64,000 nt of DNA from Hyphomicrobiales bacterium (GTDB lineage Bacteria > Pseudomonadota > Alphaproteobacteria > Rhizobiales > CAJQND01), in the NCBI GenBank assembly GCA_028285595.1, contig JANQOW010000066.1, positions 126,350 to 190,349 of the forward strand, given 5' to 3'. Made by a program: the position numbers and the translations under genes. The notes under the pieces were generated by a model. It had not been told where the DNA came from. It saw nothing but the letters and a program-made list of their open reading frames with translations, and did no database searches. Below are positions 2,031 through 47,627 of this stretch, one piece after another (position 1 is the first letter of the stretch; each line of letters begins with the position of its first letter).

Positions 2031-3444
2031 CTGCCGTCGGCACGTCGAAATTGGAGTAAGACAGACGTCAAGCATTTCGAAGCGTATTCATCCGTGGATT
2101 GAGCGGAACCTTCGCGCTCGTGGTGGAAAGATCGCTTTGGCAAGCTTAGCGATTGCGCTATCTCGCACGGCGACGATGGTCTTGCCACTCTTTACCATTC
2201 CATGGTCAGTGAACTATCTGGGCAGCGAACGATTTGGCATGTGGATCGCCGCCACGTCCCTGATGCCGCTTTTGGCGTTTTTTGGCGGCGGCGTCGGTAA
2301 CTCACTTCTCAATGCAGTCTCGCGTGCTCACGCCCAAGCAGACAATCAGAAACTGAGAGTGGTCGTTGGCACTGCCCTAGCCATGACCATGTTTCTGGCG
2401 GCGCTTGTTCTTACCATCGGCCTCATCGCCGCTTATGCTCTGCCTTGGGGCAACTTGCTTGGCCTTAAATCACCCGTGGCGCTGGCCGAGGTAAGAGCGG
2501 TGATTGCGACTGTGATCGTAGCAATTGCCCTTGGGTTTCTGACCAATATCGGGACCAAGGTCCGCACGGGATTACAACAGATACCTGCAGTGGCCGCTCT
2601 CGAAATCTTAGGCACGATTGTAGTTCTGCCGGTCTTGCTACTGGCGATCCATCAGCAGATGTCCACAGCATGGTTGGTCGCAGCGGTTGTGCTCGTGCCA
2701 CTAATTGTAAAGGGAGCGGGCTATGCGATCTTCTTCATCAACAATCCCGGATTACGCCCAGGAAGCAGTGATATAGACCCACGAGTTGCCCGAGATTTGG
2801 CCGCAGGCAGCGGTATGTTTCTGGTCACGACGATTGCCCATGGAGTGGCCGTCGCCTCCGACAATCTCTTGATTGCTAATATCATCGGCGCGCACGCGGT
2901 TTCCGATTACTCCATTGTGTTACGCCTGTTCATGATCCCTCTTTTTGTTGCGAGTTTTGTCTATGGCGCACAGTGGCCGGTTTATGCCGAGGCTGCCGCG
3001 AAAAACGAACTGGCATGGATCAGAAAGACATTTTTTAGAACAATCTCTATCGCGGCTCTCTCAGCGGTCATCATGTCTGCAACGATGTTTTGGTTGGTTG
3101 ATGAGATTCTAGTGCTTTGGGTGGGAGACGCGGTCACGCCCAGTCCCCTTCTATGCGCGGCCGCAGCCTTTTATGCGGTCCTTGTCGTCGTCGTGCGTGG
3201 CTATCAGAATCTGTTTTTTGCCCTGGACGAAAGAAAAACTCAGATACGCCTCAGTGTATTAATGGCCACTGTGAATGTCGCACTGACAATCTATCTGTTG
3301 CATAGGGTGGGCGCGGAAGGCGCTCTCATTGCAACGAATATCTCTTATGTGGTGTGTCTAATACTTCCGTATTCTATACTGTGTTGGATGCGGCTCTCAG
3401 CAAAACGCCCATCCGGAGTTTCGCCATTGGCCCGGCGGCCTTAG
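1954..3444 (+). CDS. Wzx-type polysaccharide flippase (MATE/MOP-like)
   Basis: This integral membrane protein has about 12 predicted helices and the look of O-antigen/EPS flippases. An early helix carries positive residues and a conserved SERFGMW-like loop, followed by paired hydrophobic segments to the C-terminus. It would move lipid-linked repeat units across the inner membrane. The longest frame starts at GTG 1954 inside sqdB, giving 496 aa with a polar, atypical N-terminus. A TTG at 2137 behind GGAAAG gives 435 aa and starts at the first helix, close to usual family length. The real start is probably between these two. Downstream is the polymerase-like gene, 28 bases away. Confidence 0.8.
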   Translation: MISLSVTRTAATGAKFLACPIGRNVNCRRHVEIGVRQTSSISKRIHPWIERNLRARGGKIALASLAIALSRTATMVLPLFTIPWSVNYLGSERFGMWIAATSLMPLLAFFGGGVGNSLLNAVSRAHAQADNQKLRVVVGTALAMTMFLAALVLTIGLIAAYALPWGNLLGLKSPVALAEVRAVIATVIVAIALGFLTNIGTKVRTGLQQIPAVAALEILGTIVVLPVLLLAIHQQMSTAWLVAAVVLVPLIVKGAGYAIFFINNPGLRPGSSDIDPRVARDLAAGSGMFLVTTIAHGVAVASDNLLIANIIGAHAVSDYSIVLRLFMIPLFVASFVYGAQWPVYAEAAAKNELAWIRKTFFRTISIAALSAVIMSATMFWLVDEILVLWVGDAVTPSPLLCAAAAFYAVLVVVVRGYQNLFFALDERKTQIRLSVLMATVNVALTIYLLHRVGAEGALIATNISYVVCLILPYSILCWMRLSAKRPSGVSPLARRP

Positions 3445-4825: not shown

Positions 4826-5975
4826 CGCCCAAAAGTCGCGAGTTATCGTGGTGCAGCCGACCGTACCCACGTACCGGGTTAGCTTCTTCGATCAAATCAG
4901 CGACAAGCTTGGACCACTGTTCAAAGTTTATGCCTCACGACAGAACATGGGCGTGCTGACAGCCAATCGTACGACCCAAGAATGGGAAGTGCCACTTGGT
5001 CAAGTCTTGCGACTGCTGCCCGGAGTGGAATGGCAATCTGGGGCACTCAGCATTCCGATCCGCCGAGGCGACATCCTGGTTGTTTGGGGGTCCGCGCGGG
5101 CACTCACCAACATTGCTCTCCTCATAAAATGCCGCCTTAAGGGCGCGAAGACGGTTTGGTGGGGGCACTATTGGTCATCCACGAGCAAGAAATGGACCGC
5201 CAACATCCGCCTCGGGATCATGCGACTGAGCGAGTACCTTTTGTTCTACACTGACTTGGAAGTGGCGGAGTACTTGGCCTCCCGTCGCGACGGCCGCGAG
5301 CCAAATGTGTTCGCTCTGAACAATGGTATCGACACAACCAACATCGTTCACCTGAGAGCTGCATATAAGGCGGAAACCCGGTTACGCCGAGTACTTTTCA
5401 TTGGACGACTGAGCAAAAAAGCAGACCTCAGCACCCTGATACGCTCACTGTCATTGCCGGAATGCAGTGATATCGAACTTGATATCATTGGGGAAGGTGT
5501 TGAGGAAACGCGGATGCGAGCCCTTGCGCAGGAGTTGGGTCTCGGCCAACGCATAACATGGCACGGAGGTCTGACCGACGAAGCAAGGATCGCTCCAATC
5601 GCCAATCAGTGCCAGGCCTTTGTCTATCCTGGTCCGGTTGGCTTAAGCCTCATTCACGGACTGAGTTATGGCCTTCCGGCAATTGTGCACAATGATCGCT
5701 GGAGTAATGGCCCAGAGATCGCGGCGCACGATGAAGGAACCAACGGGCTGACCTTCACTCGCGGCGATGCGGCGTCCTTGGCAGATTGTATGGCCTCACT
5801 GCTCTCCAATCCGGAAAGACTGAACGCAATGTCGCGGGCGGCGGTGGAAACTACCCGAGAGAATTTCAATACGGAAAAGATGGCCGAGCGCTTTTGCCAC
5901 GCAATCACCACGATCCAATTAAAGGACGCAGTGCTTGATGGAAAGGACGAACGTGCGTCGGGTGGATCATCATGA
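4818..5975 (+). CDS. glycosyltransferase family 4 protein
   Basis: This 385-residue cytoplasmic GT-B enzyme has the C-terminal GT4 nucleotide-sugar domain: FIGRLSKKADLSTLI near the middle, IIGEGVEE, then WHGGLTDEARIAPI and VGLSLIHGLSYGLPAIV. The usual EX7E element is modified, with a serine/isoleucine context in place of the first Glu. That departs from typical GT4 enzymes and may affect retention of the canonical mechanism. The N-terminal half is poorly conserved and probably binds acceptor. ATG at 4818 overlaps the end of the polymerase gene, and the 3' end overlaps the next GT4 gene through ATGA. Either this or the following enzyme could transfer sulfoquinovose, by analogy with the GT4 enzyme SqdX; that is speculative. 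Confidence 0.85.
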   Translation: MCSAQKSRVIVVQPTVPTYRVSFFDQISDKLGPLFKVYASRQNMGVLTANRTTQEWEVPLGQVLRLLPGVEWQSGALSIPIRRGDILVVWGSARALTNIALLIKCRLKGAKTVWWGHYWSSTSKKWTANIRLGIMRLSEYLLFYTDLEVAEYLASRRDGREPNVFALNNGIDTTNIVHLRAAYKAETRLRRVLFIGRLSKKADLSTLIRSLSLPECSDIELDIIGEGVEETRMRALAQELGLGQRITWHGGLTDEARIAPIANQCQAFVYPGPVGLSLIHGLSYGLPAIVHNDRWSNGPEIAAHDEGTNGLTFTRGDAASLADCMASLLSNPERLNAMSRAAVETTRENFNTEKMAERFCHAITTIQLKDAVLDGKDERASGGSS

Positions 5976-36167: not shown

Positions 36168-38507
36168 GTGGCAAAGGCGCAGCTAGGAGAACTGTTTTCG
36201 ACGGACAGGTCGTTGAAGCTGCAGTTTGCCGGCCAGTTTCTCAGCAAATTCAACCTCAAAGAGCGCACGCTGAGACGCCTCATTACGGTCCTCATTTGTG
36301 TCTTTATCATCTTCCTGGCCGGCGCGCTTTTGCTCAGGAGCGTCTCAAACTATTCAGAGAGCCTGGAAGAAGGCAAGCGGATCTCGGCGGTTCATGCGGA
36401 CCTCATCGCGGCCAATTTGAGACAACAGCTGGCGTTGGACCTGCAACGCAACAGCACACCGCGTATCCTGCTTACCGATGATCTGGAACGGGCCATGGGG
36501 ATCGATGCGGACGGCGCCGGCCGGGTCTTTCTGGCGGTCAGCGCCCAGGGCTACGTGAATGCCACCGCGCCCAACACGCCGGCCCTGAACGGAAAGAGGC
36601 TGACCTCCATCCTGGCTGCCGGTTCAGCAAACGCTGAGGCCAAATCCTGGCGCGAGCTGGTGGCGACGCCTCTGGTGGATGGCACGTTGGTGTTCGTGAC
36701 GCGGCGCCAGCTTTCCCCGCACCCCGGCACCCTAATCTTGATCCAGCAGAAAGATGACGTGCTCGCCGCCTGGTGGTTCCGGGCCAACGGCTATGGCTCC
36801 TTGTTCATCACCACCAGTTTTGTGCTCTTGCTCATTGGCGCGGCCTTTCACTGGCAGTCCTCGCGCGCGGACGACGCGGACCGCACTTTGGAGATTGCCA
36901 CCCGGCGCTTGGACAAGGCATTGGATCGGGGCAAGTGCGGCCTGTGGGACTGGGACATCGCCCGGGGCCATATCTTCTGGTCAAAGTCCATGTACGACAT
37001 GCTGGGTCTTGAACCTGCCGGCGAACTGCTGTCTTACGGCGAAGTGTCCGAGCTGCTCCATCCCGACGATGCGAGCATGGACAAACTGGTCGACCGCATG
37101 CTGCGCTTTGGCGACAAGCAGGTGGACCAGGAGTTCCGCATGCGCCACAAGGATGGCCATTGGGTGTGGCTGCGCGCCCGCGCCGAGCTGGCTCAGGAAG
37201 ATGGCGAAGAAACCCCGCACTTTGTGGGCATCGCCATCGACATCACCGAGCAGAAGCATGCCGCCAAACTGAACCAGGAAGCCGAGCTGCGCCTGCGCGA
37301 TGCCATTGAGAACATCTCGGAGGCCTTCGTTCTGTGGGATGCGGACAACCACCTGGTCATGTGCAACAGCATCTACCAGCAGTTCCACAACCTTCCCGCC
37401 AGCGTATGTGTGCCGGGCACCGCGTATGAGGAGGTGCAAAAGGCGTCGAAAGAGCCGATCGTCCGCGAGCGCATCCCCAAAGATCCCAACGATTCCCACA
37501 CCGGCAGCACATTCGAAGCCCAGTTGGACGATGGTCGCTGGCTCCATATCTCCGAGCGCCGCACCAAGGATGGCGGCTTCGTTTCGGTGGGCACCGACGT
37601 TACGCCGATCAAACGGCATGAAGAGCAGTTGCTGGATTCAGAGCGTGAACTCATGGACACCGTGCGCGATCTGGAAAAGACACGCATGGAGCAGGAAGCG
37701 CAAAAGCAGCGCTTGGCCGAGCTGGCGGACAATTATCAAGAACAGAAGACCCGGGCGGAAGCCGCCAACCGGTCAAAGTCAGAGTTCCTGGCCAATATGA
37801 GCCACGAACTGCGCACCCCGCTCAACGCCATCATCGGCTTTTCAGAGGTCATGGTTTCAGAACTTTTGGGGCCTATCGGTACCAAGAAGTACATGGAGTA
37901 CGCCAACGACATTCACGGCTCCGGCCAATATCTGCTGGAAGTGATCTCCGACATTCTGGACATGTCGAAGATCGAAGCCGGCCGCATCCAACTGGAGCCC
38001 AAGCCGTGCAGCTTCGACACCGTGATCGATCATGCTCTGCGCATTGTTGACCCCAAGGCAAACGATCAGAAGATCAAGATCATCCGCCAGGTAGAACCCG
38101 ATATCTCCCTCATCGCCGACGAACGGGCGCTGAAGCAGGTGCTGATCAATATTCTGACCAACGCCGTGAAATTCACCCCTGAAGGCGGAGACGTCCGTGT
38201 GGTGGCTTCAAACACCGGCGGGCGGTTGGACATTAAGATTGTCGACACCGGGATCGGCATCCCCGCCCGCGACATCGAAAAACTGGGACGGCCTTTTGAG
38301 CAGGTGGAAAACCAGTTCACCAAGTCTCACAGCGGTTCGGGCCTGGGGCTTGCCATATCGCGCTCTCTCGTGGAGCTCCATGGCGGTCACCTGAAGATCT
38401 TCAGCATGGAAAACCATGGCACAACAGTGCACATCAACATGCCGCTCAGCACCCAGGAGGTGCATATGCCGCCGGCTCCGCACCAGATCAACGAGATCGC
38501 CGTTTGA
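36168..38507 (+). CDS. membrane PAS-domain sensor histidine kinase (PleC-like)
   Basis: This 779-residue kinase starts at GTG 36168 behind AAGGGG. A helix at about 39-58 and another near 213-232 bracket a periplasmic region of some 150 residues. Then come two PAS domains (GLWDWDIARGHIFW and HKDGHWVWLRA; NISEAFVLWDADNHLVMCN), a coiled coil (about 490-535), the HisKA box with His546 in NMSHELRTPLNAIIGF, and a HATPase domain (DERALKQVLINILTNAVKF, GSGLGLAISRSLV). The kinase part resembles PleC/DivJ-type cell-cycle and surface-polarity kinases. No response regulator is adjacent, so it is an orphan. Its target could be a DivK/PleD-like protein elsewhere. Confidence 0.9.
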   Translation: MAKAQLGELFSTDRSLKLQFAGQFLSKFNLKERTLRRLITVLICVFIIFLAGALLLRSVSNYSESLEEGKRISAVHADLIAANLRQQLALDLQRNSTPRILLTDDLERAMGIDADGAGRVFLAVSAQGYVNATAPNTPALNGKRLTSILAAGSANAEAKSWRELVATPLVDGTLVFVTRRQLSPHPGTLILIQQKDDVLAAWWFRANGYGSLFITTSFVLLLIGAAFHWQSSRADDADRTLEIATRRLDKALDRGKCGLWDWDIARGHIFWSKSMYDMLGLEPAGELLSYGEVSELLHPDDASMDKLVDRMLRFGDKQVDQEFRMRHKDGHWVWLRARAELAQEDGEETPHFVGIAIDITEQKHAAKLNQEAELRLRDAIENISEAFVLWDADNHLVMCNSIYQQFHNLPASVCVPGTAYEEVQKASKEPIVRERIPKDPNDSHTGSTFEAQLDDGRWLHISERRTKDGGFVSVGTDVTPIKRHEEQLLDSERELMDTVRDLEKTRMEQEAQKQRLAELADNYQEQKTRAEAANRSKSEFLANMSHELRTPLNAIIGFSEVMVSELLGPIGTKKYMEYANDIHGSGQYLLEVISDILDMSKIEAGRIQLEPKPCSFDTVIDHALRIVDPKANDQKIKIIRQVEPDISLIADERALKQVLINILTNAVKFTPEGGDVRVVASNTGGRLDIKIVDTGIGIPARDIEKLGRPFEQVENQFTKSHSGSGLGLAISRSLVELHGGHLKIFSMENHGTTVHINMPLSTQEVHMPPAPHQINEIAV

Positions 38508-38515
38508 CCGCGCCG

Positions 38516-39034
38516 TCAGTCGCTGATGCGCTTGCGCCACTTCTCCATCTTCTCCACCCGCCTCAGTATTTTCGAGCCGAGGATCTTGCGCTCATCCGGC
38601 GTAAGGGCATCAACGAATTTGAGCAGCAGGTCCTGCCGGCTGGCACCATGACTGTCGTGCGCCAGGCGCAAAGCCATGACGGCAGCGTTAAGCCGATTCT
38701 GGTCAAATGTGGGGGCTGAGAGCGTATTGGCCAGCTCTTTGAGCGGCGCCACAAACTCCTCACGCTGACCGCGCAGCGCCTTACGGGCCTCTCTGAACTG
38801 AGTGTCTAGCTTGTCGCGCCGTTCCGAGGACAACTGGCGCATGAAGGAATGGATCCCAAGGGCGTGCATGGCAAAACCGCCATGGCCGTGCTTATGGATC
38901 ATCCAGGCCCGGGCCCCAACTGCACCTATGCCGACCACATTGAGCATCAAGGACAGCACCAGAACGATCTTCATCCATCTGGGCGCTTTGCGGCGCGGCT
39001 CCATGGCGGGATGCTCGGGGGTTTCAACGCTCAT
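38516..39034 (-). CDS. membrane-anchored periplasmic metal-sensor-like protein (CnrX/Metal_resist family)
   Basis: This 172-residue protein has a short cytoplasmic N-terminus, one helix near residues 22-42, then a helical periplasmic domain. The domain begins with a His-rich stretch (HKHGHGGFAMHALGIHSF) and continues as an amphipathic coiled pair (SSERRDKLDTQFREARKALR, LTPDERKILGSKIL). This is the CnrX/Spy-like 'heavy-metal resistance' layout. It overlaps the anti-sigma gene by ATGA, and that gene overlaps the sigma gene in the same way. The trio parallels CnrH-CnrY-CnrX of Cupriavidus. I infer that it senses a periplasmic metal or envelope signal. Confidence 0.72.
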   Translation of the reverse strand: MSVETPEHPAMEPRRKAPRWMKIVLVLSLMLNVVGIGAVGARAWMIHKHGHGGFAMHALGIHSFMRQLSSERRDKLDTQFREARKALRGQREEFVAPLKELANTLSAPTFDQNRLNAAVMALRLAHDSHGASRQDLLLKFVDALTPDERKILGSKILRRVEKMEKWRKRISD

Positions 39035-39537
39035 TGCAGGTCTCCTTCCGCCAGCGTGAAGGACTCAAACCCGATCAGGTTATCACCAACAGCACCCTGG
39101 CCGGCATTCGCCAACACGATCGTGCCAGTGTTCGGAATATAACTCGCCGTCAGATCACTCAGACCGGCCAACACACCAACCATCAGCGAGGCCGCCATGG
39201 CAATGCCCACCGGAACCGCTTGGCGCAGATCAAACCCGCCGCGCGGCCTGGCATGTTTCGACCGGGCAGCCTGAAGATCCACAACCGGCGCGCTGGGTGG
39301 TTTCGTCACCTTAGCCAGCATTCGGTCCACCGCCCCGTCGGGCACATTGGCCTCCGGCACAAGGTTCAGCACGGCATCCAATTGCCGGGCTTCCTCGACC
39401 CAAGCGGTAACCTCAGTCTCGTGATCTGAAGCAATGGCTTCAAGCTGCTCTCGTTCATCTTCGGGCCAGTTGTCCGGGTTTGCTCCATACGCATCCAGCA
39501 CATCCTTCAGCCGGCCAAGTTCAGTTGCCTTAGTCAT
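39031..39537 (-). CDS. single-helix anti-sigma-factor-like protein
   Basis: From ATG 39537 this gives 168 aa. The start overlaps the sigma gene stop (ATGA); the open frame extends further upstream but would read inside the sigma gene. The cytoplasmic part has an acidic helical opening (LGRLKDVLDAYGANPDNWPEDEREQLEAI) and a basic linker. A helix at about 124-142 (PVGIAMAASLMVGVLAGL) and a short periplasmic tail follow. Topology and position fit an ECF anti-sigma factor like CnrY, though I see no HXXXCXXC zinc motif. It would hold the sigma factor at the membrane until the downstream periplasmic protein detects its signal. Function is inferred from operon order. Confidence 0.65.
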   Translation of the reverse strand: MTKATELGRLKDVLDAYGANPDNWPEDEREQLEAIASDHETEVTAWVEEARQLDAVLNLVPEANVPDGAVDRMLAKVTKPPSAPVVDLQAARSKHARPRGGFDLRQAVPVGIAMAASLMVGVLAGLSDLTASYIPNTGTIVLANAGQGAVGDNLIGFESFTLAEGDLQ

Positions 39538-40184
39538 ATTGTTTTCCAGCTCCCCTCTCCGTTTTGCCCGCCCTGAGCAAAGTCTTCCAGCAATCCCTGC
39601 CACTGCTCGCTTAAAGCGGCCTTGAGCGCTCGGCGCGCCCGGGCCAGCAGAGATTCAAGTGCATCCACGCTCACCTCCAGAAGATCCGCCGCTTCCTTAT
39701 TGGGAAGTCCTTCATAATAGGTGAGCACCAGCGCCAAGCGTTGCCGTTCAGGCAACCCGTCTATGGCCTGCTGCACGGCATCGGCTGCTTCATCCGCCTG
39801 CAGTGCGCCATCCGCCGCCACGGCCGGATCCACCTGATCAGGCAGATCATCGGATATGTCCGGCTTCTTCTTGCGCAACCGGTCAATAGCTCCGTTGGTG
39901 GCCACGCGCGCACTCCACGCTTTCAAATTCGCCTCAGCTCTAAGCTCCGGGGGATCGCCCCAGATCTTCATGAACACATCCTGCGCCACGTCTTCTGCTT
40001 CCTGTTCTTGACGCAGGACGCGAAGTGCGGCGCGATAAACCGTCGGAAACAGTTCGCTCACGAGCACGCCAAAGGCCTGCTGGTCCCCGGCCCTCACCTG
40101 CTGAAGCAGAGTGAGGTGGGAGACCTGGCTTGACGATGCGGCGGCGGGTGAGAGCGCCGCCGCGCTCTTCAGCGGTTGTTCCAT
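39534..40184 (-). CDS. ECF-type RNA polymerase sigma factor
   Basis: This 216-residue protein has sigma region 2 (DQQAFGVLVSELFPTVYRAALRVL, EAEDVAQDVFMKIW) and region 4 (DGLPERQRLALVLTYYEGLPNKEAADLLEVS with the helix-turn-helix, then ESLLARARRALKAAL). Region 1.1 and most of region 3 are missing, as in all ECF factors. It is the first gene of the sigma/anti-sigma/sensor cassette, with ATGA overlap to the next gene. It probably recruits RNA polymerase to an envelope or metal stress regulon. The EF-hand protein gene just upstream, on the same strand, could belong to that regulon. Confidence 0.9.
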   Translation of the reverse strand: MEQPLKSAAALSPAAASSSQVSHLTLLQQVRAGDQQAFGVLVSELFPTVYRAALRVLRQEQEAEDVAQDVFMKIWGDPPELRAEANLKAWSARVATNGAIDRLRKKKPDISDDLPDQVDPAVAADGALQADEAADAVQQAIDGLPERQRLALVLTYYEGLPNKEAADLLEVSVDALESLLARARRALKAALSEQWQGLLEDFAQGGQNGEGSWKTI

Positions 40185-40219
40185 TCTGCCTCGCGGCTCG
40201 TGCCGTAACGCCTGGCCGC

Positions 40220-40681
40220 CTAGTTTTCCTGATCAAAGAACTTGCGCATATGCGCGCGCATTGCATCGCGGAAAGCGCCCATTTCTTCACGGCTCACTTC
40301 GCCGTTCTTGTCAGTATCCATGCGGGTGAAGAACTTGTCCACCTGGCTGCCGATCTCAGCTTTGGTCATGATACCGTCAGAATTGCCATCGAACCGGTCG
40401 AACATGAAGCCCACGCGCTTGGCCACGCGTTTGCGCACATGCTCGCTGACTTCCTCCTTGGTCACCTGGCCATCGTTGTTGGCATCCACCCGGTCGAACC
40501 GTTTGGTGATGCGGGGCATGATTTCCGCCCTGGTGACCTTGCCGTCGCCATTGGCATCCATGTGGCGCATCATCATCCCGCCACCCCATTGTTTGAAAGC
40601 GGCATTGGCGCTCAGCGCCACACCGGACACCGCAGCAATGGCCGCGGCCGCGATAACAAGTGTCTTGGTTTTCTTCTGCAT
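40220..40681 (-). CDS. exported EF-hand calcium-binding protein
   Basis: From ATG 40681 this gives 153 aa; a longer frame to 40717 adds residues before the signal peptide. The signal peptide MQKKTKTLVIAAAAIAAVSG, ending near ANA, directs export. Four EF-hand loops follow, each with spaced acidic ligands: DANGDGKVTRAE, DANNDGQVTKEE, DGNSDGIMTKAE and DTDKNGEVSREE. It should bind calcium, or another divalent metal, in the periplasm. It lies 36 bases upstream of the ECF sigma gene on the same strand and may be cotranscribed. Confidence 0.85.
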   Translation of the reverse strand: MQKKTKTLVIAAAAIAAVSGVALSANAAFKQWGGGMMMRHMDANGDGKVTRAEIMPRITKRFDRVDANNDGQVTKEEVSEHVRKRVAKRVGFMFDRFDGNSDGIMTKAEIGSQVDKFFTRMDTDKNGEVSREEMGAFRDAMRAHMRKFFDQEN

Positions 40682-40778
40682 GATTTCACCCGTTGTTTGG
40701 TGTTGTGAACCGTGCACAGCCTGTCTGTGCTCTCATGCACTAAGGACGGAAGGGAGGCGCAAAATCCGTCGCGCCGGT

Positions 40779-43721
40779 TCAATCTTTTTGGCCAGCGGCG
40801 TCCACGGAACCAATCACACGATCGAAAATTGCGCGCACACCACCGGCCACATCCGCCAGCTTAGCGTCCAGCCGCGCCATGTCAGGCTCTCCCGCCGCAG
40901 AAACCAGAAGGCCATGCAGATCATCGGCCGGGGTTTCAACGTTGAAAGTTCCGGTCACACAAAGACGTAAGATCTGGGTCAAGGTCTGGTAGAGCTCATA
41001 CGCCCCTTCAAGCTCGCTTTGATCTGCCGGCGAGAGGAGGCCGTGGTCCCGCAGGGCCAACAACGCCTCACCGGCATTCTGACGCAAGATATCCGGATGC
41101 TCCCAGCCATGCTTGAGCTGGAGATATTGTGCGGTGAACTCCACATCCACCAGACCGCCCGGCTTCAGCTTCAAGTCCCACGCATCTCCCTTGTGGAGCT
41201 CATCGATCATGCGCTGGCGCATGGAGAGCACATCATTGGCGAGCTCTGCCTGCTCCGGCTTTTTGGTCAAAACGCGGATCATCTCTTCTGAACAGGCCGC
41301 AGCGAGGCGGTCATCCCCCGCCACCACGCGCGCCCGGCTGAGCGCCATGCGCTCCCAGGTCCAGGCCGAGCTTTCATGATAGGTCTTGAACGCCTCAAGA
41401 CTGACCGAGATGGGGCCCTTGTTCCCCGAAGGGCGAAGACGCATGTCCACCTCATAGAGCAGGCCTTCGGATGTGGGCACGGACAGCGCGGCAATCAGCC
41501 TTTGGGTCATGCGCCCATAATATTGCGCCGCGCCCAACTGCTTGGGCCCTGGCGACATGGCGCTGGGGTCTTCCACGTCGTAGACCGTCATCAGATCGAG
41601 ATCGGAGGTGGCGGTCATCTCGGCACCCCCCAATTTCCCCATGGCAATGACCACAAATCGGCCACCCGGCATCTCGCCGTATTTCTCAGCCGCTTCCGCG
41701 CGCACCGCGTCCAACAGCCGCCCGATCAGAGTGTCGGCCAGATCGGAGTAAGCTTTGCCCACCTGGCTTCGGTTCGCCGTCGCGCTGATGAAGCGGACGC
41801 CGATACGGAACATCTGCTCCTGACCGATGGCGCGGGCCCGGTCCAGCACATCTTCCAGGATTTCCGCCGGCGCCAGGGCCTCCTCCACCAGGGCCTCCAA
41901 TTCTGCCCGGTCCGGGAGATCTTCAAAAAAGCCGGGATCCAGCATGGCATCCAAGGTGCGCGGTCGCTTGGCCAACGTCTCCGCCAATCTCGGGGCCGTC
42001 CCCATGATGAGGGACAGCAAGTCCAACAGCTTCCTGTTGGCCTTCAGAAGGGAGAAGAGCTGAACCCCCGTAGGCAGCCCTTTGAGGAAACTGTCAAACG
42101 TAATGAAAGCCGCATCCGGGTCGGACGATTTTGACAGAGCCTGCAGAATGTGAGGCATAAGCTCGGTGAGCAGTTCGCGCGCCCGCTCTGAGCGAGTGGC
42201 CGGGAAGCGCCCATGGTGCCAGCCGCGAATGATGGTGGAGACCTCCCCCGGCTGCCGGAACCCCAATCGAGCGAGCGTCTCCAAGGTGTCCGGATCATCG
42301 GCCACGCCGGTAAACGATAAGCTGCCCTCATCGGCGGACAGTTCTTCAGCCCCTTCAAACAACCCCTCATAGTAGGTCTGCACGCGCCGCATATGCGCCA
42401 GGAGCGCTTCGGAGAGCGCAGAGAACGCCGCATACCCGCAAAAGCGCGCGAACGCCTCCAGGCTCACCTCACTGTCGGGCAAGGTGTGGGTCTGGGCATC
42501 CTCCTGCATTTGCAAGCGGTGCTCTATGCCACGCAAGAACCAGTAGGAGGACGTCAGATCTGACGCGGCGTCCGCGCTGATCCATCCGCTCTCGTTCAGA
42601 GCCTGGAGCATCTCCACCGTGCGCCTCGCCCGCAAGGTGGGTGCGCGGCCGCCGGCAATGAGCTGTTGGGTCTGCACGAAGAACTCAATCTCTCTGATCC
42701 CGCCCCGGCCAAGCTTGATGTTGTGGCCCGCAACGGCAATCTCACCGTGACCTTTATGGGCGTGGATCTGTCGTTTCAGGGACTGCACATCTGCAATGGC
42801 CGCAAAATCCAAATGGCGCCGGAAGATGAAGGGCTGAAGCTCCTTCAACAACGCCTCGCCGCAGGCAATGTCTCCAGCCACCGGGCGCGCTTTGATGAGA
42901 GCCGCGCGCTCCCAGTTCTGCCCCATGGATTCATAATAGCTGGCTGCCGCCCCCACAGAGATGGCAAGCGGCGTAGAGCGGGGGTCCGGCCGCAGTCTAA
43001 GGTCCATGCGAAACACATAGCCATCGCCCGTCATATCCTGCATGATCGCCACCAATTGGCGCGTCATGCGGGTAAAGAAGACAGAGGGCTCCACCCCTTC
43101 GGAACACTGGCACACCATGGTGTCGTAAAACACGATGAGATCGATGTCGGAGGAGTAATTGAGCTCATGCGCCCCATACTTGCCCATTCCGAAAATGAAG
43201 TAGCCCGAACCTTCCCCTGGGGTTGATTGGCCGCTGAGCGTCAGCTTGCCCTGGGTCTCAGCGGCAGCCAGCAGATAATCCACCGAGGCACACAACGCAG
43301 CATCGGCGAACTCGGTCAGCCAATAGGTAACGGTCTCCCCCGACCAGAACCCCGCCAGATCGCACAAGCCGGTGACCAGCGCCGCACGCGCCTTGCCGAT
43401 GCGTAAGCGCTGCATCAAATCGTCCTGGCTTTCAGCGTCAGCCCAGGCGGCGCGGGCCGTGTCCCTCACCTCCTTCATCACATCTGCCGGTGGCTCGCTG
43501 AAGCATCTCACAGCAAACGCGCGGTCCCGCTCCATCAGCCGCTTGAGATATCCCGAATTGCAGGCCACGGCCTCTGCGAAATCACGCAACCCGTGACGGC
43601 TGGAGAACAGCTCAGAGAGCGGTTCAAAATCCCCAATCAGATCGGACACAAGATCCGGTGCAGGATCCGCGCTCATCAAGGGCGGTGAGCTAAGCTCGAA
43701 TGTGGCAAGGGTGTCAGCCAT
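40779..43721 (-). CDS. glnE: bifunctional glutamine synthetase adenylyltransferase/deadenylase
   Basis: This 980-residue enzyme adenylylates and deadenylylates glutamine synthetase in response to nitrogen state through PII. Both nucleotidyltransferase domains keep their motifs: the N-terminal one GKYGAHELNYSSDIDLIVFYD, split across the strand, and the C-terminal one MGKLGGAEMTATSDLDLMTVYD, both with the paired Asp metal ligands. Linker and C-terminal PII_UTase-type helical regions (RLRPSGNKGPISVS, VDVEFTAQYLQLKHGW) are also present. Length fits the alphaproteobacterial enzyme. It starts 18 bases after the histidine kinase stop, so it is probably cotranscribed with the degP/two-component genes. 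Confidence 0.95.
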   Translation of the reverse strand: MADTLATFELSSPPLMSADPAPDLVSDLIGDFEPLSELFSSRHGLRDFAEAVACNSGYLKRLMERDRAFAVRCFSEPPADVMKEVRDTARAAWADAESQDDLMQRLRIGKARAALVTGLCDLAGFWSGETVTYWLTEFADAALCASVDYLLAAAETQGKLTLSGQSTPGEGSGYFIFGMGKYGAHELNYSSDIDLIVFYDTMVCQCSEGVEPSVFFTRMTRQLVAIMQDMTGDGYVFRMDLRLRPDPRSTPLAISVGAAASYYESMGQNWERAALIKARPVAGDIACGEALLKELQPFIFRRHLDFAAIADVQSLKRQIHAHKGHGEIAVAGHNIKLGRGGIREIEFFVQTQQLIAGGRAPTLRARRTVEMLQALNESGWISADAASDLTSSYWFLRGIEHRLQMQEDAQTHTLPDSEVSLEAFARFCGYAAFSALSEALLAHMRRVQTYYEGLFEGAEELSADEGSLSFTGVADDPDTLETLARLGFRQPGEVSTIIRGWHHGRFPATRSERARELLTELMPHILQALSKSSDPDAAFITFDSFLKGLPTGVQLFSLLKANRKLLDLLSLIMGTAPRLAETLAKRPRTLDAMLDPGFFEDLPDRAELEALVEEALAPAEILEDVLDRARAIGQEQMFRIGVRFISATANRSQVGKAYSDLADTLIGRLLDAVRAEAAEKYGEMPGGRFVVIAMGKLGGAEMTATSDLDLMTVYDVEDPSAMSPGPKQLGAAQYYGRMTQRLIAALSVPTSEGLLYEVDMRLRPSGNKGPISVSLEAFKTYHESSAWTWERMALSRARVVAGDDRLAAACSEEMIRVLTKKPEQAELANDVLSMRQRMIDELHKGDAWDLKLKPGGLVDVEFTAQYLQLKHGWEHPDILRQNAGEALLALRDHGLLSPADQSELEGAYELYQTLTQILRLCVTGTFNVETPADDLHGLLVSAAGEPDMARLDAKLADVAGGVRAIFDRVIGSVDAAGQKD

Positions 43722-43739: not shown

Positions 43740-45131
43740 CTAAGCGGCAGCGGGAAGCTCCAGGCAGGCCTCAAAGCCAACTTTTCCATCCCTGAACACC
43801 AGCGCACCCCCATGCAGCCGCGCCACGCCCGCCACCAGCGACAGTCCCAAGCCGCTGCCCGGCTGCGAGCGGCTGGTGTCGAGACGCACAAAACGCTGCA
43901 GAACATGCTCGCGCTCGGTTTCCGGAATGCCGGGCCCATTGTCAGCGACGGTGACCTCAATCTTGTCCTTAACCCGTTGCACCAGAAGCGCGATCTCCAG
44001 GGCCCGGTTCTCCCCCTCCTGAGGCGGAGCGTATTTCAGGGCATTGTCGATGAGGTTCGATATGGCCTGAGCCAGAAGCTGACGGCTCGCGGTGACCTTG
44101 AGATCGGGCGTGCCGGAAAACTCAAAGGTGCCGCCGGCATCTTCCACCAGGGGCTGGTAGAGCTCGGCCATCTCTTCAGCCACTTCCGACACATCAAGCG
44201 GCTCCATTTGCTCGCTGGTTTGTCCAGCTTCCGTCCGGGCAATGCTGAGCAGAGCATTGAAGGTGGCCAAAAGCTGATCTGCCTCCTCGATGGTCTCCAC
44301 CAGCGCTTCTTTGTAGGAGGCCTTGGTGTCTTGGCGCAGCGCCGCCTCCACCCGGGCTTTCAGGCGGGTGAGAGGGGTCTTGAGATCGTGAGCCACATTG
44401 TCCGATACCTCGCGCATGCCGGTCATCAGGCGCTCGATCTGATCGAGCATGTTGTTAAGATTGCCCGACAATCGGTCGATCTCATCATTGGTGCCACGCA
44501 CGGGCATGCGCTCCGACAGGCCGCCGGCCATAATGGCCTTTGAGGTATCGGAAATCACATCGATCCGTCTGAGGAAGTTCCGGCTCATCAAGAGCCCGCC
44601 GCCGAGGCCGAACACAAGGGCCATGCCGATGGCGATAAAGGTGGACTGCCGGATGAGAGTTGCAAATTGGCGGCGTTCTTCCACATCGCGCCCAACCACT
44701 AGCAGATAGCCGCCCCTGAGACGGGTAAAGAAGGCCCGCCCGCTATGCTGCTTGATCGAGTTGCCGTTGAACACCTCGTAGGGAAACTCCAACCATCCCG
44801 AGGTGCCCGTCACGCCGGATGGCACGCCTTGCAGGTTTCCGGCAAGCCTTCGGCCTTGCTGATCGAAAATACTGTAGATGCCGCGCTCTGAGTTCCGCAC
44901 CGAGCGCTGCTCCACCACGTTGGCCAGCGCGGTGATGCTGCCGAAGCGGTACTGCTCGTTCAGACCCCTGATTTCAGCGCGGATGGTTTCATCGGTCTGC
45001 CGCTCCAGAAGGACGGCAGTGTTCCAATAGATGTAGGCAAGAATTGCACCCACTGACAAAACGAACACCAGCAGGTAAGCCGCGGCCAACCGGAAGGTGG
45101 ACGTACGCCAGAGATTTGCATTACGGCTCAC
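43740..45131 (-). CDS. HAMP-containing sensor histidine kinase
   Basis: I chose GTG 45131, which overlaps the response regulator stop, giving 463 aa; the open frame reaches 45221 inside that gene. Helix 1 (FRLAAAYLLVFVLSVGAILAY) and helix 2 (FIAIGMALVFGLGGGLLM) flank a periplasmic domain of about 135 residues. HAMP, the HisKA box with the phospho-His in DNVAHDLKTPLTRLKA, and HATPase motifs (LIDNALKYAP, DNGPGIP, GSGLGLSLV) follow. It should phosphorylate the OmpR-type regulator encoded just upstream. Position behind degP suggests envelope-stress sensing. GlnE is immediately downstream. Confidence 0.9.
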   Translation of the reverse strand: MSRNANLWRTSTFRLAAAYLLVFVLSVGAILAYIYWNTAVLLERQTDETIRAEIRGLNEQYRFGSITALANVVEQRSVRNSERGIYSIFDQQGRRLAGNLQGVPSGVTGTSGWLEFPYEVFNGNSIKQHSGRAFFTRLRGGYLLVVGRDVEERRQFATLIRQSTFIAIGMALVFGLGGGLLMSRNFLRRIDVISDTSKAIMAGGLSERMPVRGTNDEIDRLSGNLNNMLDQIERLMTGMREVSDNVAHDLKTPLTRLKARVEAALRQDTKASYKEALVETIEEADQLLATFNALLSIARTEAGQTSEQMEPLDVSEVAEEMAELYQPLVEDAGGTFEFSGTPDLKVTASRQLLAQAISNLIDNALKYAPPQEGENRALEIALLVQRVKDKIEVTVADNGPGIPETEREHVLQRFVRLDTSRSQPGSGLGLSLVAGVARLHGGALVFRDGKVGFEACLELPAAA

Positions 45132-45795
45132 GGATTGAATACCCGGCCCCGCGGACCGTCTGCAAAAGGGTGCCGTCGAAGTCTTTGTCGATCTTCGAGC
45201 GCAACCTTGAAATGTGGACATCTATGACATTTGTTTGAGGATCAAAATGATAATCCCAAACGTTTTCCAATAACATAGTGCGGGTGACCACCTGGCCCGC
45301 ATGCTTCATGAGATATTCCAGAAGGCGGAATTCGCGGGCCTGAAGAACGATGTCCTGGCCGGCCCGGGTGCAGGTCCGGGCAAGCAGATCGAGTTCAAGA
45401 TCGCCCACCACCAGCTTGGTCTGTGCTGCCTCCGGCTTGTTGCGCCGGGCGAGCACATCGATGCGGGCCACCAACTCTGAAAACGCATAAGGCTTGGCCA
45501 GGTAATCGTCTCCGCCGGCCCTCAAACCGGTGACCCGGTCATCAACCTCACCCAGGGCAGACAGAATGAGCACAGGTGTCGCCACATCCTCAGCTCTCAA
45601 AGCTTCGATAACGCTGAGGCCGTCGCGCTTGGGCAACATCCGGTCCACAACCATGACATCATGCACGCCCTCGCGGGCCAATGCCAAACCGTCTTCGCCG
45701 TCAGCGGCGTGGTCGACAATATGACCTTCCTCGCGCAGGCCCTTGATAAGGAACCCGGCAGCTTGTTGGTCGTCTTCAATCACCAGAATGCGCAT
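45121..45795 (-). CDS. OmpR-family response regulator
   Basis: From ATG 45795 this gives 224 aa; an ATG at 45843 would add 16 residues before the conserved MRILVIEDD. The receiver has DD at 8-9, phospho-acceptor Asp51 in VVDRMLPKRDG, a Thr/Ser switch in LILSALGE and Lys in AKPYAF. The C-terminal winged helix has the OmpR pattern LQAREFRLLEYLMKHAGQVV and NVIDVHISRLRSKID. Translation of the kinase probably starts within its last codons. It lies 239 bases downstream of degP, behind two strong hairpins, which suggests partial uncoupling from degP. Confidence 0.91.
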   Translation of the reverse strand: MRILVIEDDQQAAGFLIKGLREEGHIVDHAADGEDGLALAREGVHDVMVVDRMLPKRDGLSVIEALRAEDVATPVLILSALGEVDDRVTGLRAGGDDYLAKPYAFSELVARIDVLARRNKPEAAQTKLVVGDLELDLLARTCTRAGQDIVLQAREFRLLEYLMKHAGQVVTRTMLLENVWDYHFDPQTNVIDVHISRLRSKIDKDFDGTLLQTVRGAGYSIREP

Positions 45796-45909
45796 GGAGC
45801 CGTTGAGCTTAAAAGTTTTGGACGCCAAGAATTGCTCAGTCATAGGTCAATCACCATGAATATCAAGCCACAAGGCGCTTGGGTTGAAGGGAAGAAGGGA
45901 AAGGGGCCG

Positions 45910-45998
45910 GCCGGACAGGTAACCTTGGGGGAACCACAACAAAGGTACTCTGTCCGGCGCGGCGGACGGTTCCTGGTTAGCGGGGGACAGGAACCGTC
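45910..45998 (-). promoter_or_regulatory. two strong hairpins between degP and the response regulator gene
   Basis: Read on the minus strand, transcripts leaving degP first meet an 11-base-pair perfect stem (arms 45988-45998 and 45965-45975, loop of 12). A 9-base-pair stem follows (arms 45950-45958 and 45910-45918). No long T run follows either, so simple intrinsic termination is not evident. Attenuation or 3'-end protection of degP mRNA is possible. Confidence 0.45.
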
Positions 45999-46034
45999 TC
46001 TGACGTGAGCATCGCGTGAGGGGGGACGCGAGCT

Positions 46035-47519
46035 CTACACGCGCTTCAGCGGGATGGCGATGAAGCGCTGATTCTCACCGGAACGAACCAGCAGCAGAAC
46101 CGATTTGCGGCCCTTGCGGTCGGCCCGTTCAATGGCGCTGGCCACACTTTCGGGGTCCTGCACCTCAATGCCGGCCACTTCCAGAATGTGATCGCCCGGG
46201 CGCAGACCCTTCTCGGCGGCAGGACCGTCGGGGTCTACATCCACCACAGCCACGCCGTCGCCACCGCTGGGTGTTAGTTCAAGACCCAGCGTTGCCAGGG
46301 AAACCTTGGGCTCATCGGCCATGGTGTCGGCCTTGGCGAGTTTCTTCTGACCGGGAAGCTCGGCAATGGTCACGGTCTTGGTGATACGTTCTCCATTGCG
46401 GATAAGTTCCAAGGTCGGCTTGGCGCCCGGCTTGATGGCAGCCACCTTGCGGGCCAGATCGCGCGGGCTTTCCACCGTCTTGCCGTCCAGCGTCAAGATT
46501 GTGTCACCATTGCGCAGGCCTGCCTTGCTGGCCGGCGAGCCACCTTGCACATCGGCAATAATGACGCCCTTGGCTTCATCCAGGCCAATGCCTTCGGCAA
46601 TGTCCTTGGTGACCGGCTGAATGACCACACCGAGCCAACCGCGGGTGACGTTGCCGTCATCTTTCAGATCGGCCACAACGTCGCCGGCGAGGTGTGCCGG
46701 GATCGCAAAGCCGATCCCGACACTACCGCCTGAAGGAGAGAAAATGGCGGTATTCACGCCTACGACTTCGCCTTTGAGATTGAAGGCCGGGCCGCCGGAG
46801 TTTCCTTTGTTAATGGCTGCATCGATCTGCAGAAAATCATCATACGGGCCAGTGCCGATGTTGCGGCCGCGCGCGGAGATGATGCCGGTGGTCACGGTGC
46901 CACCCAGACCGAAGGGGTTGCCCACAGCCACCACCCAATCGCCCACACGGGCCGGGGTCTTGGCAAACCGTACGAAGGAGAATTTCTTGCCGTTGGCTTT
47001 GATTTTTAAGAGAGCCAGGTCGGTTTTGGGGTCCGAACCGATCAGTTCGGCCTCATGCTCGTCACCATTGGCAAACTTGACCTTAATGGTAGCGCCATTG
47101 TTCACCACGTGATTGTTGGTGACCACGAAACCGTCTTCGCTGATCACGAAACCTGAGCCGCTTGAGTTGGAGTGGCGGCGCGGCGCTCTGAACTGCTGCC
47201 CGCCAAAGCGGTCTTCGAACTGCTTGAAGAAGTCTTCCATGCCATAGCCGCGCGGCATGCGCTGACGCTGGCGCTGAGAGCGTTGGACCGCGCCTCTCAC
47301 CTGCACGGAGACCACGGCGGGCTGAACGCGCTCGACCAGATCGGCAAAACCAGCGGCAGGGGCTCCATTGTCGAAGGTTTTGCTGAGGTCGGTGGCGGCG
47401 TTTGCCGGCTGCTCCAAGAGGCCCGGCACGGTGTAGGCCGTGGTGCCCAGAAGGGCGGCGATGGCCAGTGCGATCGGCAGTTTGCCGAGCCGGATCTTGG
47501 GTTTTCTTGTCTGCATCAT
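46035..47519 (-). CDS. degP: periplasmic serine protease/chaperone DegP (HtrA/MucD)
   Basis: ATG 47519 follows GGGAGAAAG, giving 494 aa. An N-terminal signal/anchor (LPIALAIAALLGTTAYTVPG) exports the protein. The trypsin-like domain has the full triad: His in VTNNHVV, Asp in DPKTDLALLK, and Ser in KGNSGGPAF. Two PDZ domains follow (GWLGVVIQPVT, GLRNGDTILTLDGKTV; GVAVVDVDPDGPAAEKGLRPG). It degrades or refolds misfolded envelope proteins. It stands upstream of a two-component pair and glnE, an order I know from rhizobia, with the ccm genes on the far side. Confidence 0.94.
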   Translation of the reverse strand: MMQTRKPKIRLGKLPIALAIAALLGTTAYTVPGLLEQPANAATDLSKTFDNGAPAAGFADLVERVQPAVVSVQVRGAVQRSQRQRQRMPRGYGMEDFFKQFEDRFGGQQFRAPRRHSNSSGSGFVISEDGFVVTNNHVVNNGATIKVKFANGDEHEAELIGSDPKTDLALLKIKANGKKFSFVRFAKTPARVGDWVVAVGNPFGLGGTVTTGIISARGRNIGTGPYDDFLQIDAAINKGNSGGPAFNLKGEVVGVNTAIFSPSGGSVGIGFAIPAHLAGDVVADLKDDGNVTRGWLGVVIQPVTKDIAEGIGLDEAKGVIIADVQGGSPASKAGLRNGDTILTLDGKTVESPRDLARKVAAIKPGAKPTLELIRNGERITKTVTIAELPGQKKLAKADTMADEPKVSLATLGLELTPSGGDGVAVVDVDPDGPAAEKGLRPGDHILEVAGIEVQDPESVASAIERADRKGRKSVLLLVRSGENQRFIAIPLKRV

Positions 47520-47627
47520 GTTTCTTTCTCCCGACAGGGTGGTGAATTTCATGATGCGGATATAGAGATCTGCTCCTTACAGGCACCTTTCAGGCAGATT
47601 AATTCTTTGTAAGGTGATGATTCCGCA

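Follow-up and report, generated by a model that had tools for sequence, protein, structure and literature searches.

In Caulobacter vibrioides, cabp and sigV form a circuit in which, in the part of its description available to us, both genes are induced by calcium limitation (EGTA) and by acid (PMC13171946). CaBP is presented there as a periplasmic EF-hand protein that undergoes a Ca-dependent mobility shift, and a sigV mutant shows low activity of the cabp promoter (PMC13171946). The same account, again as far as the available part goes, describes a RACE-based cabp promoter consisting of GGAAA, a spacer of 13 nt and CGTTCA; it has cabp and sigV separately transcribed, with the sigV promoter inside cabp, and it gives SigT an input to both genes, whose promoters are likened to the SigU/SigT consensus (PMC13171946). 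The membrane component of the circuit appears as a question mark in the authors' model (PMC13171946).

Here we compare this circuit with a four-gene cassette located in the window, by which we mean the whole 64-kb stretch of DNA that was analysed. Our main reading, to which we assign a probability of roughly 0.73, is that the four genes make up an autoregulated switch for envelope/ion stress, alike in kind to the cabp-sigV circuit of Caulobacter. The cassette belongs to a known general class of ECF sigma systems; it is widespread and probably autoregulated, and an EF-hand calcium-binding protein appears to be its conserved output in many lineages; what is new are the candidate membrane parts, a promoter signature, a link to DUF1800 genes and a charge pattern.

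Composition of the cassette

Table 1. Features of the cassette and of its surroundings (window coordinates)
Feature	Coordinates	Strand	Details
PAS histidine kinase, convergent to cassette	36168..38507	+	
MR, membrane-anchored periplasmic PF13801 protein, candidate sensor	38516..39034	-	172 aa; PF13801 E 5e-22
AS, putative membrane anti-sigma factor	39031..39537	-	168 aa; one hydrophobic helix
ECF sigma factor (SigV counterpart)	39534..40184	-	216 aa; Sigma70_r2 E 3.6e-15, r4_2 E 7.8e-16
Exported EF-hand protein (CaBP counterpart)	40220..40681	-	153 aa; PF00036 E 4.1e-20
Putative autoregulatory promoter	40746..40772	-	-35 GCGACGGA 40772-40765; 16-nt spacer; -10 CGT 40748-40746
glnE, upstream neighbour	40779..43721	-	PF03710 E 5.2e-122

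The sequence-only reading of this locus had described genes for an ECF sigma factor, a single-helix anti-sigma-like protein and a CnrX-type periplasmic protein, with an EF-hand gene close by. We confirm this arrangement of genes, all of them on the minus strand, the periplasmic protein being a member of PF13801 (Table 1), as well as the 4-nt ATGA overlaps reported at both inner junctions, sigma-AS and AS-MR. What had been said of the EF-hand gene also stands in that it lies upstream on the same strand and encodes an exported protein with four EF-hands; its distance from the sigma gene, given as 36 nt, measures 35 nt. The four loops are canonical, 12 residues each, and start at residues 42, 66, 98 and 122, and a signal peptide is present as judged by eye. 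The best NCBIfam model for the sigma factor is PRK05602, at 185 bits, which is under the cut-off of 208.

Lanmodulin has proline at position 2 of its EF loops. We rejected an identification of the window's EF-hand protein as lanmodulin, since it scores 45.3 bits with the LanM model against a cut-off of 135; the residues at position 2 of its four loops (A, A, G and T, with no proline) also contradict it.

With regard to the surroundings, glnE adjoins the cassette at several further loci too, and several other cassette loci have a kinase placed and oriented like the PAS histidine kinase of the window. The minus strand upstream of glnE (43740-47552) encodes a Do-family (DegP/HtrA) protease, a response regulator and a histidine kinase; for the latter two the nearest models are those of heavy-metal two-component systems, with scores under the cut-offs.

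AS has a cytoplasmic domain with a YGAxxxxWP motif (YGAD..RWP; alignment A1), one transmembrane helix and an acidic periplasmic tail, which is 17-48 residues long if one misframed row is disregarded. No Pfam anti-sigma family is among the matches of 20 AS members at E 0.01, the weak matches found among them being single ones to DUF3379, T2SSG and ABATE, and no NCBIfam anti-sigma model is over its cut-off (the antisigma model gives 22.6 bits, cut-off 100). The AS profile likewise finds no match to CnrY at E 10, although the two may be distantly related. We infer that AS binds the sigma factor.

The window MR scores 78.8 bits with PF13801 (Metal_resist), for which the cut-off is 29.2, and all 19 members of the MR alignment (A2) match this family at E 0.01. 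A structure predicted from the single sequence is all helical, with a mean pLDDT of 49, too poor for a fold search. MR had been called His-rich, and this fits the window protein, which has eight histidines, five of which closely follow the membrane anchor; it does not describe the family, in which the periplasmic part has no histidine in 7 of 95 sequences and at most one in 21 of the 95.

The earlier suggestion of a CnrX-type nickel/cobalt sensor finds no support here, the ligands being mostly unmatched and the gene order different. At the positions that we take to be the Ni/Co ligands of CnrX (H42, H46, E63, H119 and M123), the window MR has H, a gap, F, L and F, so that only H42 is matched. 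Across 20 MR members, counting that of the window, no sequence keeps H119 or H46, one keeps E63, and H42 and M123 are each kept by two, in an alignment that is uncertain at the N-terminus.

The tail of AS and the periplasmic part of MR tend to differ in charge. Net charge is negative for the AS tail in 93 of 95 sequences (mean -6.2) and positive for the periplasmic part of MR in 67 of the 95 (mean +5.1), and an acidic AS tail is often paired with a basic MR. These counts leave out loci without an MR or with an MR match of E >1e-9 and retain four MR rows that are truncated at the end of a contig; one of the two rows with a non-acidic AS tail, L058, looks misframed.

Recurrence in Alphaproteobacteria and in relatives of Caulobacter

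In a simple phmmer search of 61 genomes from the same order and nearer, the window's own included, all four genes occur in order at 16 of the 25 best sigma loci. The AS profile matches at least 130 of 387 Alphaproteobacteria genomes, a count that is a lower bound because at most nine candidates per genome were scored. We examined wide flanks class-wide at 60 loci, one each from 60 hand-picked genomes among the 130 that are AS-positive, and found sigma-AS-MR at 57 of them, AS being present by construction. The EF-hand gene is directly upstream on the same strand at 28 of the 60 and downstream at one; upstream EF-like matches at L063-L065 were excluded because their frames read through other genes.

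The four-gene order, whose conservation had been named as a check, recurs across the class beyond chance. A second test set for the earlier proposal, whether the EF-hand gene is co-conserved with the cassette, gives a divided answer that does not refute it: the gene is directly upstream at those 28 loci and is not at the other 32. Since 32 of the 60 loci have no upstream EF-hand, the EF-hand gene is not obligatory.

Primer letters for cabp and sigV from the Caulobacter study (PMC13171946) were searched in 249 genomes of one family, taken as Caulobacteraceae on the basis of the best DivJ matches of 376 genomes, none of which was over the curated cut-off. Ten matching regions were examined. The order glnE-EF-sigma-AS-MR is present in four of them (L162-L165), where the EF-hand gene has the same position as in the window, and the cassette is absent from the six others (L166-L171). 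Profile matches to the open reading frames of the four have E-values of 5e-14 to 2e-13 for AS, 1e-16 to 7e-15 for MR and about 1e-67 for sigma. At L164 the EF protein has 133 aa, as in the available part of the Caulobacter study, and the gap between the EF and sigma genes is 29 nt if the first GTG is the sigma start, which agrees with the start-site figures given there (PMC13171946). Primer Procabp5 matches exactly in three of the four. Most of the remaining primers show at least three mismatches in these genomes, which are therefore relatives and not NA1000; the primer matches, the CaBP length and the gap together suggest that they are Caulobacter. In control searches C. vibrioides matches the PF13801, EF-hand_7 and DUF1800 models, and a 20-mer from a cabp primer, scanned against named genomes, gave one chance match only, in Actinomadura. 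We note that in each of the four loci MR is followed, on its own strand, by msrP and msrQ, genes for the repair of methionine sulfoxide in the periplasm.

AS and MR are natural candidates, judged by these gene neighbourhoods, for the membrane link that is missing from the cabp-sigV circuit. Our literature search, which covered open-licence papers, found no paper naming AS and MR genes within this circuit.

Promoter signature and candidate targets

The putative promoter of the window sits just past the end of glnE, ahead of the EF-hand gene, and no other site in the 64 kb combines an exact core with CGT at 14-16 nt. The signature GCGACGGA-N15/16-CGT lies 5' of the EF-hand gene at 49 of 58 loci, where first-order resampling gives an expectation of 0.68; up to one mismatch to the core was allowed overall, and the core is exact at 30 of the 49. 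This count left out L026, L028 and L030, whose sigma matches are weaker, and upstream stretches of less than 100 nt, and it used EF start codons chosen by rule of thumb. By its letters, as given in the available part of the study, the RACE-based cabp promoter and GCGACGGA-N15/16-CGT are the same signature (PMC13171946). Set against the GGAA and CGTT elements described for cabp, the window promoter matches in the core and has CGTCC, not CGTTC, at the -10.

At loci without an upstream EF-hand gene the signature precedes the sigma gene in 6 of 32 cases (0.6 expected), a low share that ties the signature above all to the EF-hand gene. It is found immediately before the sigma gene at only one of 28 EF loci, and this, together with the separate cabp and sigV promoters and the SigT input described in what is available of the Caulobacter study (PMC13171946), counts against a simple operon.

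Other occurrences were seen at single loci. At L204, on a Burkholderia megaplasmid, the signature (position 3144) precedes the gene for a small exported protein with VPGHW-like repeats, which lies upstream of sigma in the slot held by the EF-hand gene at other loci; it also stands before a DUF1800 gene there (position 5615). At L173, in one Caulobacter-type genome, it is located 67 nt before the gene for a small exported protein that is presumably RcnB-like, to go by its appearance.

DUF1800 genes may be further targets. Across 60 genomes with the cassette, the signature precedes 12 of 27 DUF1800 loci, in 10 of 21 genomes, where 0.93 loci would be expected, whereas in 80 genomes without an AS match it precedes none of 27 loci (none of 20 genomes). 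With ancestry ignored, Fisher's test gives p = 1.0e-4 by locus and 4.8e-4 by genome. Six of the 12 signature-bearing loci come from four related Caulobacter-type genomes, and without these four p by genome is 0.005, ancestry again being ignored. In the control set 'without cassette' means no AS profile match and is thus assigned by elimination; of the 29 matches listed, 27 were scanned, the exceptions being the weak L260 and L256, which lies at a contig end. The cassette also adjoins a DUF1501-DUF1800 pair on an Ensifer plasmid and on a Burkholderia megaplasmid. The window's own genome has no DUF1800 gene, and a strict promoter pattern matches four times in it, against five for the reversed control, with only the operon's own site credible; we therefore found no regulon beyond the operon in this genome.

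Candidate mechanism and comparison with known systems

We propose that at rest the cytoplasmic domain of AS would hold the sigma factor at the inner membrane while the anchored, helical MR holds the acidic periplasmic tail of AS. Acid, a loss of calcium or some other disturbance of the envelope might then alter the contact between MR and the tail, upon which AS would free the sigma factor, and the freed sigma factor would drive transcription at GCGACGGA-N15/16-CGT promoters, that of the EF-hand gene first. The exported EF-hand protein would bind periplasmic calcium and so feed back on the signal, and in some lineages DUF1800 genes would be further targets of the sigma factor. In this scheme the contact of the AS tail with MR and the role of calcium as a direct ligand are both suppositions of ours. 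The scheme draws on the gene order, the protein families, the promoter signature and its link to cassette genomes, and the charge pattern, all of which are properties of the sequences. Sigma-dependent expression and induction by calcium limitation and acid would carry over from Caulobacter by analogy, as far as that circuit is described in the available part of its study (PMC13171946). Calcium or envelope stress, which the sequence-only reading had put forward among the signals, gain plausibility from the response of the matching circuit to calcium limitation and acid reported there (PMC13171946).

It is possible, if unlikely, that the cassette instead senses misfolding in the manner of Spy or CpxP, with unfolded envelope proteins titrating MR off AS, calcium and acid acting solely by making such proteins less stable, and the EF-hand protein serving as a calcium-dependent chaperone. 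The solved sequences nearest to the MR profile are indeed those of Spy (E 2.8e-7) and CpxP (E 2.9e-5), the repair genes msrP-msrQ follow the cassette at L162-L165, and a Do-family protease is encoded upstream in the window; however, msrPQ is absent from the window and from the examined flanks of the other cassette loci scanned, and a calcium-binding output is hard to account for by misfolding alone.

Under a third reading, which seems to us quite improbable, SigT/EcfG heads a general stress cascade of which the EF-hand protein is a mere output, a calcium buffer, and in which the local sigma factor and AS play a minor part. The SigT input to sigV and cabp and the likening of their promoters to the SigU/SigT consensus speak for it, but the same study, in its available part, finds low cabp promoter activity in a sigV mutant (PMC13171946), and the signature is tied to the cassette, as its absence from all 27 DUF1800 loci in genomes without the cassette indicates. 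Very improbable, finally, is a CnrX-type transition-metal sensor, in which MR histidines bind nickel, cobalt, zinc or copper to release AS and sigma with the EF-hand gene as a bystander: although MR belongs to PF13801, carries the histidines described above and, as a profile, reaches the CnrX-family chain 3zg1 (E 0.0018), the window MR keeps one of five ligands and the family few, the MR proteins of L162-L165 have no histidine in their periplasmic parts, no efflux genes adjoin the cassette in the window, and the conserved promoter sits on the EF-hand gene.

Within the preferred reading, an autoregulated switch of the cabp-sigV kind, we entertain one specific version that we hold to be rather doubtful: the AS tail, lying on a basic face of MR, may make up with MR an electrostatic latch that senses ions and pH by itself, calcium and protons tuning the contact directly and the EF-hand protein resetting the latch by buffering or presenting calcium. 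If this were true, the cassette would represent an ECF sigma system devoted to calcium responses and carrying its own calcium-binding feedback protein, present across much of the Alphaproteobacteria. Few routes by which a periplasmic calcium-binding protein affects transcription in bacteria have been worked out. The Caulobacter study, in its available part, gives one end of such a route and leaves the membrane step blank (PMC13171946), and the window locus and its relatives supply two candidate proteins for that step, along with a promoter signature and a candidate target gene, which can be tested.

Spy and CpxP are soluble. MR differs from these two in having a membrane anchor and in being encoded together with a sigma factor and AS.

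The layout of the locus had been equated with that of cnr, and here the comparison fails, for on pMOL28 the order is cnrY-cnrX-cnrH, with the sigma gene last and the efflux genes following, and in the window the sigma gene comes first. CnrYXH of Cupriavidus metallidurans does resemble the cassette in comprising a sigma factor, a one-helix anti-sigma factor and an anchored periplasmic protein related to MR. It differs in gene order, in its adjacent efflux genes, in its metal ligands, in a CnrY that the AS profile does not match and in its charges, which are the reverse of those of AS and MR (CnrY tail +2, CnrX periplasmic part -4; the sole comparison pair for the charge pattern); going by these sequence features, the window cassette is not a Cnr system.

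A tricistronic operon of Azospirillum brasilense, rpoE8, is self-activating and encodes a sigma factor, a hypothetical protein and a periplasmic heavy metal sensor, a likeness by description; the available part of its account mentions no EF-hand gene, and the function was unknown to its authors (PMC12826043).

The cabp-sigV circuit, as described in the available part of its study, differs from the window locus in that CaBP has three EF-hands and not four, in that separate cabp and sigV promoters are described, and in that neither an anti-sigma factor nor a PF13801 protein is named (PMC13171946). It nevertheless shares with the window locus an ECF sigma gene immediately preceded by an EF-hand gene, the promoter signature and, as seen in the four primer-matched relatives, the neighbouring genes.
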